A program made the translations under genes and the position numbers. Shown piece by piece: positions 30,797 through 37,758 of a stretch of 64,000 bases of DNA; position 1 is the stretch's first letter, and the number at the start of each line of letters is the position of its first letter. Source of the DNA: Haloterrigena sp. KLK7 (GTDB lineage Archaea > Halobacteriota > Halobacteria > Halobacteriales > Natrialbaceae); contig NZ_CP149787.1 of the NCBI RefSeq assembly GCF_037914945.1, positions 1,922,001 to 1,986,000 on the forward strand, read 5' to 3'. The notes under the pieces were generated by a model, which made no database searches, was not told the origin of the DNA, and saw nothing but the letters and a program-made list of their open reading frames with translations.

Positions 30797-33748
30797 CTAT
30801 CTCCGCGTACGCGTGACACCGACGGCGAGCGTCGCCAGCACCGCAATCATACCCATTGTGACTCCAAACCCGGGAACGCCGTCGTCGGCCGCCGACATCG
30901 TCACGGTGACGGACTCGTTTGCCTCACTCGAGACCGACCCCGTCGTCACGGTCTCCGACTCGTAGCCCTCCGCGTCAACGCCCACCGTGTATTCCATCCC
31001 GGTTCCGGGAACGGTCACCTCGAGCGTCCCATCTGAATCCGTCTCAGTGGCGACCGCGAACGAGGTACCGTCCGGGCGTTCGATCGTGACGGTCGCGCCG
31101 TCGATCGGCTCACCGTCCTCGTCGACGACGGACACCGACAGCGTCGCGTCGCCCTCGAGAATCGCCCGTTCGGTCGCCGTTTCGTTCGAGTCGCTCTCCA
31201 TCGAGAGCGTCTCGCTGACGTAGCCCGCCGCGGACACGTTCACCGCGTACTCGTCGCCGCCGGGGAGGGGAGCGATGCGGTACGTTCCCTGGTTCGTGTG
31301 AACGCCCGAATACGTCCCCCGTCGACCGGTCGCTTCGATGGTCGCGTCCGAGATCCCGTCGCCGAACTGCGCGTCCTCGAGGGCCACCTCGAGCGCACCG
31401 TCTCCGTCGAGTGGGACCTCGACGACCGCCGTCTCTTCGCTCGAGACCGTACTCGACTCGGTCTCCGACTCGTATCCCTCGGCCTCGGCGCAAACGGTAT
31501 ACTCCTCGTCGGTTCCCGGCACCGTGACCGCGATCGTCCCATTACTGTCCGTCGGTTCGGCGACATCCAACGAGGCGCCGTCCGAGCGTTCGATGGTGAC
31601 GGTCGCGTTGGAGATTGCCGTTCCCGTCACCGCGTCTTTCGTTGCAATCTCGAGCGTCGCGTCACCCGATAGCTGGAGCCGCTCGGTGACGCGTCGCCCC
31701 GGTTTCGTCATCGTCACGTCGCGCTGGCGGTCGTGGTATCCCGGAGCGGTCGCGGTCAGCGTGTACTCGCCTCGAGTGGGAACGTTCCCGGCGACGTAGG
31801 TCCCGTCGCCCTGGTGGCTCACCGGATACGTACCGTCCCAGGTAGTCGCTTCGACGGTCGCGTTCGCGATGCCGCCGCCGAACTGCGCGTCGTCGAGAGT
31901 CACCTCGAGTTCCCCGTCACCGGCGAGCGACACGTCGACCGTCGTCGTCTCGTCGGCCGGAACGAACGACGTCTGGGCGGTCGTCTCGTAGCCGTTGGCG
32001 GCGACGGTCAGCGTGTACTCGCGGTCGCCGGTGATCCCCTCGAGTTCGTACCGGCCGGACAGATCGGTCGTCGTCTCGGAAACGGCCCCGTCGGCGCTCT
32101 CGAGAGTGACGGTCGCCTCCGCGATCGGCTCGTCCGTCACCGTATCGGTCACCGTCCCCTCCACGGTCGCGAACGAGCCGGCCTCCTCGAGGGCGGCGAC
32201 CGCGTCGACGATTCCGTGGCCGTATCGGGTGTCCTGATCGTCGGACCCGCTCCTCGGCTTCGTGGCCGTCTCCGTCAGTGCCGCCCTGATCTCGGCGGGC
32301 TCGAGGTGTCGGTCGGTCGCTCCCTGCACCAGTGCGACTACGCCCGCGACGTGGGGCGTGGCCATGCTGGTCCCGCTCTTTCGAACGTAGCCGCCGTCTG
32401 GGGACGCGCTGAGGACGCGTTCGCCGGGCGCCGTAACCGTCGGAACGACGTAGCTGCTGGGCCACTCGGACGGCGCGTGCCAGCCCCACGCGTCGCGGGT
32501 ATCGACGACCGCGCCGCTCGAGAAGTCGGCGACGCGTTCGTTCTCGTCGGTGGCGCCGACGCTGATGGCGTCGTAGACGTTCCCCGGCGACGAGGAGACG
32601 CCGTCGCCGCCGTTTCCGGCCCCGGCGACGACGACGGTGCCGCTGGCTTCCGCGTTCCGAACCGCACGAACGTACGTGCTGGTGTACCCTTCGGAACCGA
32701 GGCTCAAACTGATGACGTCGGCCCCGTTCTCGATCGCCCACTCCATGCCGTCGATCACGTCGGACGTGTAGCCGACGCAGCTCCCGCCGGTACAGTCGGT
32801 CAGGACGGCGCCGGCGAGCAGGTCCGCCTCGGGCGCGACGCCGATCTGCGTTCCGCTCGCGTCGCCGCCGACGATCGTCCCGGCGACGTGGGTCCCGTGG
32901 TCGTTGTAATCCATCGGCGTCGACGATCCGCCGGAGAAGTCCCGCCACGCGTCGACCGTCACATCGGGATGGGAGTCATCGACGCCCGTATCGAGGACGG
33001 CGACCGTCGCTCCGTCTCCGCGGGCGCCGTACCTCTCTCGTGTCGCGGGCACAGAGAGCCGCTCGAGGCCGTAGGTGTATTCGTTGCCGAATCCCACCGT
33101 CGCCGTAGTCGTCGGGTCGGCCGGTGATGACCCATTTGTCGCCGGCTCAGCTGTCGACGACGCGTTCGAAGCTGTTGACAATGCGTTCGCGCTCGTCTCG
33201 ATTCCCGGGCTCGCCGTCGCGTTACTCGATCCGTCAGTCGCCGCCCCCGATGCGAGTTCCACGGCGGCGTCAGCGTGGATCTCGACGACACCGTCGATCG
33301 CACCGACCGTCTCTAACGACACGCGATCAGTGTCGACCGACACCAGCGCAGCGTTTGCGAGCCAGAACTGTCGCTCGATATCGAGTCCCGCCGTCGTCTC
33401 GGCCGCGTGCTCGAGAGAACTCTGCGTCCCGTCTGTAGCGGCCTGTAACGTCGTCGGTTTCACTTCACCAGATACCGTCGTGGCCGTTCGGCTACTCTCG
33501 AGTCGGACGATTACCTCCACGACACCGTCGGCGTCCTCGAGTGTCGGATCGATACGTGCCGGCTCCGATCGTTCGACCGAAGTCGTGCCGTTGATCGGCG
33601 GCTGGGTGTTCGCATCATCCGTCGCGGTTACGCCCTCGATTGGAGCGGCTCCAGCCGCCAAACCGATTGGAAACAGCAGCGAAGTACAGAGAAGCGCCAC
33701 CAGAGAGAGCACGAGAAGCCGGCGGCAGCCTATCGAAAAACCATACAT
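30797..33748 (-). CDS. Secreted subtilisin-like protease (S8) with repeat domains and PGF-CTERM anchor
   Basis: A 983-residue surface protease. A signal peptide (about 1-32) is followed by an inhibitor-I9-like propeptide region (about 60-165), a Ser/Thr/Asn-rich linker, and a complete subtilase domain with catalytic Asp253 (AVLDTGVDDSHPDV), His284 (DHGTHVAGT) and Ser461 (SGTSMATPHVAG). Next come five carboxypeptidase-regulatory-like beta domains; four of them form two tandem copies of a module of about 168 residues. The protein ends with DDGVPGFGVTMG, a hydrophobic helix and TRTRR, a PGF-CTERM signal for archaeosortase processing. A substrate among surface proteins, for instance the adjacent S-layer protein, is only an inference. 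The gene converges on the S-layer gene. Confidence 0.93.
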   Translation of the reverse strand: MYGFSIGCRRLLVLSLVALLCTSLLFPIGLAAGAAPIEGVTATDDANTQPPINGTTSVERSEPARIDPTLEDADGVVEVIVRLESSRTATTVSGEVKPTTLQAATDGTQSSLEHAAETTAGLDIERQFWLANAALVSVDTDRVSLETVGAIDGVVEIHADAAVELASGAATDGSSNATASPGIETSANALSTASNASSTAEPATNGSSPADPTTTATVGFGNEYTYGLERLSVPATRERYGARGDGATVAVLDTGVDDSHPDVTVDAWRDFSGGSSTPMDYNDHGTHVAGTIVGGDASGTQIGVAPEADLLAGAVLTDCTGGSCVGYTSDVIDGMEWAIENGADVISLSLGSEGYTSTYVRAVRNAEASGTVVVAGAGNGGDGVSSSPGNVYDAISVGATDENERVADFSSGAVVDTRDAWGWHAPSEWPSSYVVPTVTAPGERVLSASPDGGYVRKSGTSMATPHVAGVVALVQGATDRHLEPAEIRAALTETATKPRSGSDDQDTRYGHGIVDAVAALEEAGSFATVEGTVTDTVTDEPIAEATVTLESADGAVSETTTDLSGRYELEGITGDREYTLTVAANGYETTAQTSFVPADETTTVDVSLAGDGELEVTLDDAQFGGGIANATVEATTWDGTYPVSHQGDGTYVAGNVPTRGEYTLTATAPGYHDRQRDVTMTKPGRRVTERLQLSGDATLEIATKDAVTGTAISNATVTIERSDGASLDVAEPTDSNGTIAVTVPGTDEEYTVCAEAEGYESETESSTVSSEETAVVEVPLDGDGALEVALEDAQFGDGISDATIEATGRRGTYSGVHTNQGTYRIAPLPGGDEYAVNVSAAGYVSETLSMESDSNETATERAILEGDATLSVSVVDEDGEPIDGATVTIERPDGTSFAVATETDSDGTLEVTVPGTGMEYTVGVDAEGYESETVTTGSVSSEANESVTVTMSAADDGVPGFGVTMGMIAVLATLAVGVTRTRR

Positions 33749-33910: not shown

Positions 33911-35173
33911 TTACCGTCTTGCAAATTCGATCGCTTTCAGCGACTCTGATTCTGTTCGGACGGTTAACTCGAACCCGTCAGTCGGTGGCACCAACCAGAG
34001 TTCGCCGTTCGCATCGGTCTCGCCGATGACGGTACCATCGACGACGATCGTCGCGTCGACTGGTGCCCCATCGTCCGACTCGGTAACGGTAATCTTCGCC
34101 GGTGCGGTATCCGGTGTTCGCTCGAATGTCGCAGTCAGATTGGCAGTGGACATCGAGTCGGCAGACTCGATCGGGATTGAATCGAGATCGAGCGTCTGTC
34201 GCTCGTGGTAGACGGCATTTGCACCGCCGCCAAAGTAAACCGTGAGATGCCCTTGATCGTGGGACATTGCCTGGACCTGATAGAGTTTGTTCGTTTCGTG
34301 TTTGATCGTGTAGGTTCCGGACGTCGTCTCAAATGCCCACGGATACAGTTCCTGTGCGGTCCTCCGTGCCTTGTCCATCGTCCCGATCTGGTCGGGTCGG
34401 TCCCGCACACGATTGTCGTACCGAGTCGTCTCTCGAATGTACGTGTCGCCGTCGAGCGTCGAAAGCGTTAGTCCATTCGACGCGGACTCGAGTAGTATCA
34501 TCGGAGTGGCGTCTGCTGACTCGTCTGATTCGTCGACGCCGCGAAGCGAACTCTCGATATCCGTACGAATTGGACTGCGATACACCTCGAGTTCGGCAGC
34601 GAACGCTTCGACTGAGTCTGATATATCGACAATTCCATTGGACTGTCTGTCGAGATCATCCAACGCCTGCTGTAGAACCCGTGCCTCGTAGTGATTTCGC
34701 GCAAGGGTTCGCAGCACCTCATCCTCGCTGGCCTCGCCAGCGGCGTGAGCCGTGACTATTTCCCGTTCGCGCTCACGGAGGTCTTCGATGCGCTCTTCGA
34801 TACGTTTGAGTTCTGCATTGATGGCTTCAGTACGATTTTCGTTGCCTTCGATATCCGTTAAGGACGTCTCTAGCGCGTACATCCGGTGATCAGTGCGGAT
34901 CGATTCGTCGTGGCTCGCGACCATGAGGCCGAAATCGAGCGTTAGATTAGCGTACGTTGTCTCCCCGTCTCCCTGAAGGACGAGCCTGTTCGGCGTTCCT
35001 TCGAGTTGGGCGTGGTCGCCTTCGACCGAGACGGCCGAGTTCTGAAACCGGAACGTCGTCTCGTTGTCATCGGCATTAGTTGCGATGCTGGACGATCCAG
35101 CGGTTCCAACTGCCGAAACCGGAAGTGAGAGGGCGAGGAGCACGGCGAGAGCGATCGGAACCGTGTGTCTCAT
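33911..35173 (-). CDS. Secreted coiled-coil protein with C-terminal Ig-like domain (DUF7096-like)
   Basis: 420 residues with a Sec signal peptide (MRHTVPIALAVLLALSLPVSAVG). A beta-rich N-terminal part is followed by a charged coiled coil (about 110-165, with NAELKRIEERIEDLREREREI), a mixed middle domain, and a C-terminal carboxypeptidase-regulatory-like domain holding ATIVVDGTVIGETDANGELWL. No membrane anchor, lipobox or PGF-CTERM is visible, so it is either released or held by a partner. I recall this architecture as haloarchaeal DUF7096; the name is uncertain. It is divergent from the membrane-bound winged-helix gene, across 159 bases. Confidence 0.75.
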   Translation of the reverse strand: MRHTVPIALAVLLALSLPVSAVGTAGSSSIATNADDNETTFRFQNSAVSVEGDHAQLEGTPNRLVLQGDGETTYANLTLDFGLMVASHDESIRTDHRMYALETSLTDIEGNENRTEAINAELKRIEERIEDLREREREIVTAHAAGEASEDEVLRTLARNHYEARVLQQALDDLDRQSNGIVDISDSVEAFAAELEVYRSPIRTDIESSLRGVDESDESADATPMILLESASNGLTLSTLDGDTYIRETTRYDNRVRDRPDQIGTMDKARRTAQELYPWAFETTSGTYTIKHETNKLYQVQAMSHDQGHLTVYFGGGANAVYHERQTLDLDSIPIESADSMSTANLTATFERTPDTAPAKITVTESDDGAPVDATIVVDGTVIGETDANGELWLVPPTDGFELTVRTESESLKAIEFARR

Positions 35174-35332
35174 TGGGACTGTCTTTTTTCCCGATGTACA
35201 AAAAGGAGTCGCCCGATCGTCCGGGTCAGTAACCCATACTTACGTCGACTCGAGACCGTTCGGAGACCGTAGTAACGTACCATTGTTTGGATGGAAAGGG
35301 TTTTTTCCCCTGCGGTTAACCAGTTGGTACGT
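35174..35332. promoter_or_regulatory. Shared divergent promoter region
   Basis: The 159 bases between two divergent genes hold a minus-strand candidate (cctttttgtaca, about 35196-35207) and a plus-strand T-rich element (ggttttttcccc, about 35299-35310) about 28 bases before the ATG at 35333. Joint control of both genes from this region is plausible. Confidence 0.45.
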
Positions 35333-36640
35333 ATGCGGTTATCATCCGCTGTTGCCCTCGCCCTGGCGTTCCTCCTTGCTGCGCTCACCGTCGGGACGGT
35401 CGTCGTCGCTCCGGTGACGGCTGCAGCCCCTAGCACAGACGGATCTTCCGCTTCTTTCCAGTCCCAACCCACCGCGTCTGCCCTCGAGTCGTCGGTACAA
35501 GACGGCAATGAGTACAATCCGGAACGAGCCGATACCTGGCAGGTAATCCGTCTCAATGTGACTGAAAGCGGTGACGTCCGCTGGACGATCGAGAGTCGAT
35601 TCTATCTCTCGGCCAACGAAACCGACGCCTTCGAACAGTACGCCGAGGCCGTTTCGAACGGCGACCGCGGTGGTGGTTATGACGTCGATCAATATGACCA
35701 GTTCCGTGTCGATGCCGAACGCTCTACCGGTCGCGAGATGGCTTTCGAGAACGAACGTTGGAATGAGCCGCGGACGGAGCCCCTCGTTAGCGAGGGTTCG
35801 GGCAGCGACGACCGGAAACTGGGTATTATTTCCTACTCGTTCACTTGGACGAACTTCGCAACCGTTGACGACCAGCGGATCCACTTCGGCGACGCGTTCG
35901 TGACCGACAACGGCGTTTGGCTCCCCTTCCTCGATGACGGTCAGCGATTGGTCATCGAGTCGCCAGCTAACTACGGCATCGACACTGCACCTGCGGAGGT
36001 CCAGAACGGGGCCGTCGTTTACGATGGCTACCTGAATTTCAGTAAAGCGGACTTCCAGATGGTGTTCCTTCGGAGTTCCAGTACGTCGACTCCCGGGGCC
36101 AGTCCCGGACCCGAACCACCCAGCGAGTCAGCGTCGTTCGTCACGGTAGAGCGCGTCGCCGCCGCGTTCGGCGGTTTCGTCCTGGTGATCGTGGTGGCGT
36201 CGCTGGCTATCAGTCGCTACCAGCGGTCGGCGTGGTTCGACGACGCGTCGGCCACCGGCAAGTCTCCCGCCGGTACTGCGCGTCCCCGGTCGACCGAGAC
36301 CGACGGGTCGGGCACTGCCGCCGTCGCGAGGAGGGATGATCCGGCGGGTATCGAACACGAGTTCGACGAAACCGAAGCCGTCAACGACGGCCCCGCCGCG
36401 GATGGTGACGGGTCGATCGACGACGAACTCCTGAGCGACGACGAGCGGGTGCGGCGACTGCTCGAGCGAAACGGCGGGCGGATGAAACAGGCGACGATCG
36501 TCAAGGAGACCGGCTGGTCCGACGCGAAAGTCTCGCAACTCCTCTCGGAGATGGACGACGACGACCGGATCCAGAAGCTTCGGATCGGTCGCGAGAACCT
36601 CATCACCCTTCCGGACGTCGATCCGACCGAGGTCGACTGA
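35333..36640 (+). CDS. Membrane-anchored winged-helix regulator with extracellular domain (DUF7345/DUF7343-like)
   Basis: 435 residues. A signal peptide or first helix (MRLSSAVALALAFLLAALTVGTV) leads to an extracellular beta-rich domain (about 40-270) with WTIESRFYLSANETDAFEQ and FGDAFVTDNGVWLPFLDDGQ. One membrane helix lies near 278-298 (AAAFGGFVLVIVVASLAI). A disordered acidic linker follows, and the cytoplasmic C terminus is a winged helix: DDERVRRLLERNGGRMKQATIVKETGWSDAKVSQLLSEMDDDDRIQKLRIGRENLITLP. This layout fits a one-component membrane transcription regulator, as haloarchaeal families of this kind are usually annotated, though the DNA target is unknown. The ATG at 35333 starts directly at the signal peptide. 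Confidence 0.82.
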   Translation: MRLSSAVALALAFLLAALTVGTVVVAPVTAAAPSTDGSSASFQSQPTASALESSVQDGNEYNPERADTWQVIRLNVTESGDVRWTIESRFYLSANETDAFEQYAEAVSNGDRGGGYDVDQYDQFRVDAERSTGREMAFENERWNEPRTEPLVSEGSGSDDRKLGIISYSFTWTNFATVDDQRIHFGDAFVTDNGVWLPFLDDGQRLVIESPANYGIDTAPAEVQNGAVVYDGYLNFSKADFQMVFLRSSSTSTPGASPGPEPPSESASFVTVERVAAAFGGFVLVIVVASLAISRYQRSAWFDDASATGKSPAGTARPRSTETDGSGTAAVARRDDPAGIEHEFDETEAVNDGPAADGDGSIDDELLSDDERVRRLLERNGGRMKQATIVKETGWSDAKVSQLLSEMDDDDRIQKLRIGRENLITLPDVDPTEVD

Positions 36641-36701: not shown

Positions 36702-37445
36702 TCAGTTGTTTCCGTCCGTTCCTGACTCGTTAGCGGAGGTACCGTCCGTCTCCGACTCGTCATCAGCGCTATCGTCCGTCCCCGGATCGAAATCGACCTC
36801 CGTCGAATCGGCGTCGTAGATGTCGTCCCAGTCCTTGTCCTCGTCCATCAGGAAGACCTCGACGGTCAGCGATCCCTCGCCGAACTCCTCGATTCCGGCC
36901 GGTCGGACGTCGATGTGGAACGTGCCGTTCTCTTCCATCCGGACCTCGCCCGTCCGCTCGACGATCTTCCGGTTATCCGGTCCCTCGTTGATCTTGACGA
37001 AGAAGTACGGCTCGCCGATCACGTCGCCGTGTTCGGGCGGATCGACGTTCTCCATACTCGTGTTGGCGACGACCTCGAGGTTGAAGTTCGAGTAGCCGTC
37101 ACCGTCTTCGGCGGGTTCCGTATCGACGACCGAGATGTCTTCGATCCGGTCTTCGCGCTTGTTCTCTAGCGGCCGGTTCGGCTCCTCCGGCGGCCGCCAC
37201 TCCGCGGTCGCCGTATCGTCTTCGTCGGCGGGGTCAGTCGCCTCGTCTTCGTCGGTGGTGTCCGTCACGTCCGTCCCGGTTCCGTTGCCATCTTGGGCGT
37301 TACCGTTCTCCGACGTGATGTTCGTCTCGTTCTCTGCGTTCGTCTCGTTGGGCGAGTCGTCGGTCGTTACCCCCTCGAGGGCGGCACACCCTGACAGGGC
37401 CACGAGCAACGCAACCGCAACGACAGCGAGCGTTCGGAATTGCAT
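36702..37445 (-). CDS. Secreted lipoprotein of unknown function
   Basis: 247 residues with a lipoprotein signal ending in VALSGC (lipid-modified Cys20). The next 80 residues are an acidic, Thr/Asn-rich linker with several sequons (NETNAENETN). A folded beta domain lies about 95-220 (EDISVVDTEPAEDGDGYSNFNLEVVANTSM onward), and an acidic tail ends the protein. The start at 37445 places the signal at the N terminus; an earlier in-frame codon adds ten unlikely residues. It converges on the membrane regulator gene with a 61-base gap. No family is recognised. Confidence 0.75.
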   Translation of the reverse strand: MQFRTLAVVAVALLVALSGCAALEGVTTDDSPNETNAENETNITSENGNAQDGNGTGTDVTDTTDEDEATDPADEDDTATAEWRPPEEPNRPLENKREDRIEDISVVDTEPAEDGDGYSNFNLEVVANTSMENVDPPEHGDVIGEPYFFVKINEGPDNRKIVERTGEVRMEENGTFHIDVRPAGIEEFGEGSLTVEVFLMDEDKDWDDIYDADSTEVDFDPGTDDSADDESETDGTSANESGTDGNN

Positions 37446-37758
37446 CGTGACCGGTCGTACCGAGGCGTGGCCCATTATTACAATCCCGATAAGTGTCGTT
37501 TTCCGAAACGAGGGATACTGTTGATTATACGCGCTCGAGCGGCTACTACGGAGTAATTGAACGCAGCGAAACGATCATTATGGGGTTCACAAGCGGCGCG
37601 AATCGGACGGCCGACGGGTCTTCGACGGGGTCGCTCGCTTCGCTTGCGAACCGCTCTTCAGAAACGCTCGGCCAAAACGGCCCCGCTCACTCGCTTCGCT
37701 CGCTGGCGAGACGCACACGAAAACGGGAGAACGCCGCGACGTCAGTCGTGCGGGGGCG
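37446..37758. other. Intergenic region with degenerate palindromes
   Basis: No gene is supported. The stretch 37605-37730 holds imperfect inverted words such as gtcgctcgcttcgcttgcga and cactcgcttcgctcgctggc, of the same style as the hairpin-rich middles of the dispersed repeats, but without their head or tail. Confidence 0.5.

Follow-up and report, generated by a model that had tools for sequence, protein, structure and literature searches.

The divergent gene pair analysed here is best read as encoding a transmembrane transcription regulator (REG) together with a dedicated secreted co-sensor (CC), in an arrangement resembling a 'co-component' system and extending over the whole class of the haloarchaea. 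We consider this reading fairly probable. As a near-universal but unstudied pair of regulator and partner in a whole archaeal class, REG and CC are a strong candidate for a core sensor of the envelope or membrane.

RESULTS

Organisation of the locus

The window, that is the whole stretch of 64,000 nucleotides that was analysed, covers positions 1,922,001-1,986,000 of contig NZ_CP149787.1 in a 4.64-Mb genome. The features of the pair, numbered from the start of the window, are listed here with the evidence for each.

35333..36640, + strand: REG gene, membrane-anchored winged-helix regulator, 435 aa (Pfam DUF7345 E 3e-35, DUF7343 E 4e-31; structure model)
33911..35173, - strand: CC gene, secreted partner protein, 420 aa (Pfam DUF7096/DUF7094/Fn3_arc E 9e-62/7e-34/4e-24; AlphaFold)
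35174..35332, no strand: divergent intergenic region, 159 bp (sequence; start codons via 57-locus comparison)
34529..35173, - strand: CC residues 1-215, signal peptide and DUF7096 helical bundle, helices 81-211 (Pfam, model)
34172..34492, - strand: CC residues 228-334, DUF7094 alpha/beta domain (Pfam, model)
33938..34159, - strand: CC residues 339-412, Ig-like archaeal Fn3 domain, Fn3_arc (Pfam, model)
35197..35204, - strand: CC core promoter, TATA-type TTTTTGTA, -31 to -24 from the CC ATG (59 orthologues)
35290..35304, + strand: REG promoter element GATGGAAAGGGTTTT (consensus GATRGAAAGNRTTTT), 43 nt before the REG ATG (genome pattern search, aligned upstream regions)
35552..35974, + strand: REG residues 74-214, DUF7345 ectodomain (Pfam, model; sequons at residues 75, 95 and 235)
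36149..36235, + strand: REG residues 273-301, membrane helix (model, charge statistics)
36236..36412, + strand: REG residues 302-360, disordered acidic linker, pLDDT about 40-50 (model)
36428..36613, + strand: REG residues 366-427, DUF7343 winged helix, near-invariant class-wide (alignment, fold comparison)

The open reading frame listed for REG opens at 35291, and an ATGCGG followed by a signal peptide is found at 35333. Judging from the sequence comparison, the true start is almost certainly 35333 rather than 35291, because the 42 bases between them are a conserved DNA element whose frame differs across genomes. A coding origin of this element (upstream ATG, MESVF...) was considered and rejected, as the frame varies by locus and many loci have ATA. 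With REG starting at 35333 and CC at 35173, the divergent pair and the gap of 159 bases given by an earlier reading of this DNA made from the letters alone (the sequence-only reading) are exact.

Topology and fold of REG

REG carries, in order, a signal peptide, the DUF7345 ectodomain, one membrane helix (about residues 273-301), a disordered linker and the winged helix (366-427). It scored 121.6 bits against DUF7345 and 107.1 bits against DUF7343, for which the curated Pfam cut-offs are 27.5 and 27.6 bits respectively. The ectodomain model is beta-rich, with the modelled region 70-250 at a pLDDT of about 95. Over 57 orthologues, 128 R/K residues were counted within 15 residues after the membrane helix as against 21 before it, and N-glycosylation sequons per 100 aa came to 1.36 in the ectodomain and 0.14 past the helix. 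With positive residues concentrated behind the membrane helix and a tenfold higher sequon density on the outer side, the winged helix is predicted to be cytoplasmic. The sequence-only reading had described an extracellular domain, a single membrane helix, an acidic linker and a cytoplasmic winged helix, and this description is supported by Pfam, by the model and by the topology statistics. A winged helix outside the cell, named beforehand as an outcome that would refute the reading, is contradicted by both the charge and the sequon counts. The proposal of an architecture leading from an envelope signal to transcription without a kinase is likewise supported by the domain make-up of REG.

Structure comparison placed the winged helix in the MarR/ArsR-type fold (Rv1404, Z 10.6, rmsd 1.1 over 60 residues; HsmR, rmsd 0.9 over 60 residues), and 29 of the 31 invariant columns of the REG alignment sit in this DUF7343 domain. 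For the ectodomain, the Foldseek structure search gave weak matches, and the VIA list for REG was filled by the winged helix.

Architecture of CC

Against Pfam cut-offs of 27 to 28.9 bits, CC scored 209 bits for DUF7096, 116.8 bits for DUF7094 and 84.9 bits for Fn3_arc. Its AlphaFold model (mean pLDDT 88) shows a bundle of 4-5 helices followed by alpha/beta and Ig-like domains, in that order. No credible second membrane helix, lipobox or PGF tail was found across 59 orthologues. The earlier picture of CC was of a secreted coiled-coil protein with an Ig-like end and no anchor; secretion and the Ig-like domain stood, the lack of an anchor held over these 59 orthologues, and the coiled coil stood only in part, as the helical bundle of the model. 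The fold search of CC with Foldseek gave no convincing match, TM being 0.15 or less over the model. STAT helical bundles, found with VIA at Z about 10, rmsd 4-5 and 6-10% identity, were discounted, this range being flagged by the method as common for helical bundles.

The Ig-like domain of CC had also been said to resemble those of the neighbouring surface protease. A similarity to the protease repeats was observed with BLASTP (30%, E 1e-4), but the best Pfam families are not the same, namely Fn3_arc for the CC domain and CarboxypepD_reg for the repeats.

Conservation of the pair across Halobacteria

DUF7096 was found above cut-off in 145/145 haloarchaeal genomes and 59/59 genera, mostly as a single strong copy. 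It is essentially restricted to haloarchaea, a phylum-wide draw giving three weak matches elsewhere. For the survey of the pair 60 regions were fetched, mostly one per genus; 56 of them have both genes in the divergent arrangement, or 56/58 of the informative ones, two regions (L079 and L108) being contig ends and hence counted as uninformative. Wherever it is intact in this survey the main pair is divergent. A sample of 80 named contigs, which overlaps the 60 regions, contains the pair in 78. Among these are contigs of three Haloferax species, where etfB and etfA adjoin it; GGPS was also seen in two of these contigs. Conservation of the pair together, for which the sequence-only reading had asked a neighbourhood search, is thus upheld by both samples and, additionally, by the paralogous pairs described below. 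In two genomes (G029 and G068) CC and REG are separated yet both kept (L052/L112 and L091/L146), and there REG (L112, L146) has been relocated in the genome with its promoter element retained. Among the papers searched, none names DUF7345, DUF7096 or DUF7094.

Mean evolutionary distances are 1.88 for CC, 1.44 for the REG ectodomain and 0.27 for the winged helix. In a mirror-tree analysis the partial correlation of CC with the ectodomain was 0.35-0.45, as against 0.10-0.21 in comparisons with other proteins, which suggests a modest correlation beyond that with other proteins. The test carries little weight: lineage rate effects are incompletely removed, and CC and the winged helix also give 0.39.

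Neighbouring genes

Oriented on CC, the class-wide gene order is ATP synthase genes, a menG-type methyltransferase, CC, REG, etfB, etfA and a prenyl-diphosphate synthase, and the ancestral neighbours of the pair include the A-type ATP synthase operon. The gene menG lies beside CC at 57/61 loci, and etfB is close downstream of REG on the same strand in many genomes. The block of etf and GGPS has been relocated in Natrialbaceae.

In the source genome a subtilase and an S-layer-like gene sit inserted between menG and CC. Among 61 regions, a subtilase is near the pair in one (that of this genome) and an S-layer-like gene in two, and the link of the pair with the surface protease and the S-layer gene drawn by the sequence-only reading therefore appears to be lineage-specific, these two genes being, from the comparison of gene orders, local insertions. 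A subtilase is close to the pair in 2/80 named contigs, that of Haloterrigena salina (L218), where it is on the other side of the pair, and that of Natronolimnohabitans innermongolicus (L186). The S-layer gene had been placed 4 kb away; the distance holds at 4.1 kb, but the NCBIfam S-layer model gave 46 bits, far below its cut-off of 1100. The product of this S-layer-like gene passes the models for a haloarchaeal signal peptide, a surface domain and PGF-CTERM.

The subtilase (30797-33748, - strand) is a secreted protein in which the CarboxypepD_reg repeat occurs five times and the tail is PGF-CTERM-like; its gene is in tandem with CC here and in L186. Downstream of REG, 36702-37475 (- strand) encodes a predicted secreted or lipoprotein-like acidic protein without a confident family, which occupies the same position in many Natrinema and Natrialba contigs.

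Paralogous loci

Adjacency at the main locus is weak evidence for a link between CC and REG because menG adjoins CC about as constantly as REG does. On the sequence comparisons, the argument for linkage would be carried by the paralogues rather than the main locus. The paralogue set comprises 19 secondary DUF7096 matches over cut-off, from 18 genomes. A DUF7345 gene lies within 2 kb of the paralogous DUF7096 gene at 16/19 loci, where by our own estimate about 0.07 would be expected from gene density, though the 16 loci are not 16 independent events because they may descend from a few duplications of the ancestral pair. The other three loci (G016:C17:70491, G029:C1:1250626 and G051:C69:407936) have no DUF7345 gene within 2 kb. 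The paralogous pairs are divergent at some loci and in the same direction at others; the linkage of CC and DUF7345 has outlived changes of orientation. Some DUF7345-DUF7343 regulators have no CC neighbour (L113, L114 and L150-L156), and therefore CC is not required by every such regulator.

A second, short DUF7345 gene is frequent at the paralogous loci, its product having a membrane helix at the C terminus but lacking a winged helix. Triads of a REG-type regulator, a CC-type protein and a short DUF7345 protein were observed at L138, L140, L141, L144, L148 and L149. The short protein is perhaps a decoy or a third subunit.

Promoter elements

The element GATRGAAAGNRTTTT starts 40-45 nt ahead of the REG ATG in 55/55 usable aligned upstream regions. 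Thirteen of its 15 columns are strongly conserved, with variable flanks, and it was recovered by an unbiased motif search. When the exact pattern was searched in 145 genomes, 93 of the 96 matches listed fell in the CC-REG gap on the REG strand, as against 3 matches for the reversed pattern used as a control. The element is thus present about once per genome, elsewhere than at the promoters of etfB, menG and GGPS. Another exact match was found in G129, and one extra exact match in the source genome lies ahead of a halocyanin-like gene (L110) and is probably due to chance. No second copy is present in the 64-kb window at up to 2 mismatches. At this tolerance the pattern gave 17-31 matches per genome versus 6-17 for the reversed pattern, and no conserved target was seen when a regulon was sought with it.

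The BRE/TATA of a leaderless promoter is expected at about -41. The information in the REG 15-mer, 18.8 bits, is the top clean promoter value among the neighbours compared, for which the elements near -41 gave 16.6 (GGPS), 16.0 (DUF373), 14.7 (menG), 13.5 (etfB) and 12.8 bits (CC). AtpI, at 19.5 bits, was left out since its peak is at -17 within an operon and is probably a ribosome-binding or coding signal. An initial view of the REG element as a private operator was lowered to that of a strongly conserved promoter element because the neighbouring promoters are also conserved at -41. Although the strongest of these elements, it is of the same kind as the others. Its sequence and position would suit the promoter alone or an operator that overlaps with it, and autoregulation of REG through its own divergent promoter is plausible. 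On the other side of the gap, the T-run of the CC promoter at -31 to -27 is conserved in 59 orthologues. The GGPS, DUF373 and menG promoters also keep a gene-specific -41 sequence class-wide that exceeds the plain needs of BRE/TATA.

A paralogous regulator clade (G000:C1:2818372-2819616, L113 and L266; orthologues L267-L293) matches at E 1e-40 or better in 37/69 genomes. It is without GATRGAAAGNRTTTT and has its own element, TTCACAAggaTTTTT, at about -40 (19.2 bits).

Orthologues in Haloferax volcanii

REG and CC almost certainly correspond to HVO_0306 and HVO_0307 of Haloferax volcanii because of the gene order between idsA2 (HVO_0303) and menG (HVO_0309), an orthology drawn from gene order in other Haloferax species rather than from comparison with the DS2 sequence. 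HVO_0307 is N-glycosylated at 3 sites (201 spectra), HVO_0306 is a likely O-glycoprotein candidate (13 spectra), and both are predicted Sec substrates (PMC8241124). They are annotated there as a 'conserved hypothetical protein' and a 'probable transmembrane glycoprotein/HTH domain protein', respectively. The literature on the two genes gave glycoproteomics, and no functional study was found. Another 'transmembrane glycoprotein/HTH domain protein', HVO_1944, is N-glycosylated and its number adjoins that of the secreted N-glycoprotein HVO_1945 (PMC8241124); a CdrS binding site lies upstream of HVO_1944 (PMC8406309). HVO_1944 and HVO_1945 are possibly a second such pair. Haloferax volcanii is open to genetic work, and the two proteins were detected there, which makes kinase-free signalling from the surface to transcription directly testable in archaea.

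DISCUSSION

The architecture, the topology, the near-universal conservation, the linkage including that of the paralogues and the conserved element were all obtained by computation, and from these we infer physical contact of CC with REG, a signal and autoregulation. The ectodomain of REG would face outward and its C-terminal MarR-type winged helix would act on DNA from the membrane. CC may bind the DUF7345 ectodomain or convey to it a signal from the cell wall, the membrane or salt, and in either way would change how active or how stable the winged helix is. REG would probably regulate its own promoter via the conserved element just upstream and perhaps the CC promoter too, across the shared 159-bp gap, and would act on other targets besides.

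Other explanations were weighed against this one. One is that REG works on its own as a conventional one-component regulator. CC would then be a secreted envelope protein with no relation to it, and the two genes would be neighbours only because the order menG-CC-REG-etf is old and changes slowly. The adjacency of menG and CC, about as conserved as that of CC and REG, would agree with this, as would the regulators without CC and the two genomes where CC and REG are apart and both persist. However, at 16/19 further loci a paralogous CC gene is linked to a DUF7345 gene, with changed orientations, and we regard this explanation as rather unlikely. Less likely again is that REG responds to the condition of the membrane or the respiratory chain, with CC as the outside sensor, and that it controls the genes of its old neighbourhood (ATP synthase, menG, etfBA and prenyl-diphosphate synthase). 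Bioenergetic and lipid genes are indeed the class-wide neighbours and etfB closely follows REG on the same strand in many genomes, but gene neighbourhood is weak evidence of regulation; etfB, menG and GGPS carry their own, different promoter elements, and the REG element is not at the neighbour promoters. A surface-sensing circuit controlling the adjacent protease and S-layer gene is very improbable. The gene order in the source genome, the similar Ig-like domains and the subtilase beside the pair in L186 and on the other side in L218 can be cited for it; against it are the rarity of both genes near the pair (1/61 and 2/61 regions) and the single copy of the REG element in the window even at 2 mismatches.

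Comparison with known systems

The regulator with a dedicated co-sensor, as preferred here, can be set beside three known kinds of system. Transmembrane transcription regulators (TTRs) are, like REG, single proteins that combine a DNA-binding domain with one or more membrane helices, and, in the part of the survey consulted, they are described as widespread, archaea included, with the single-pass form the commonest (PMC10269533). REG has a DNA-binding domain and a membrane helix on one chain and so, from its sequence and model, appears to fit the TTR definition by architecture. That part of the survey defines the class by architecture alone and does not mention the REG family or a dedicated secreted partner. 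ArnR and ArnR1 of Sulfolobus acidocaldarius, which control archaella and pili, are like REG archaeal membrane-bound one-component regulators (PMC6396743). They have an N-terminal HTH, a HAMP-like and a sensing domain and two C-terminal membrane helices, whereas the domain order of REG is the reverse, with a single membrane helix in addition to the signal peptide.

Like the archaeal pair, the bacterial co-component systems ToxR/ToxS and VtrA/VtrC have a membrane-tethered winged-helix regulator, an extracytoplasmic partner encoded by an adjacent gene and sensor parts that evolve fast, and they lack a kinase; in the bacterial systems the two outside domains form an obligate heterodimer (PMC9214523). 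Their regulators have an N-terminal CadC-like HTH, whereas the winged helix of REG is C-terminal and MarR-type, DUF7343 not being CadC-type. Their partner is a lipocalin-like beta barrel, unlike the helical bundle, alpha/beta and Ig-like domains of the CC model, and CC is secreted without the membrane helix of those partners. Their genes form one operon and often overlap, whereas those of CC and REG are divergent. By analogy, CC and REG would follow the co-component logic but are neither homologous to nor members of ToxRS/VtrAC, because the gene orientation, the type and position of the winged helix and the partner fold differ. A more far-reaching proposal, which we put forward tentatively, is that of an archaeal co-component system of an origin independent of ToxR/ToxS that nearly all Halobacteria possess. 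In it, a membrane-bound MarR-type regulator would have a soluble secreted glycoprotein as its co-sensor, and each paralogous regulator would control its own promoter via its own element at about -41. If this is true, the design of ToxR/ToxS, a regulator plus an outside partner, arose separately in archaea.
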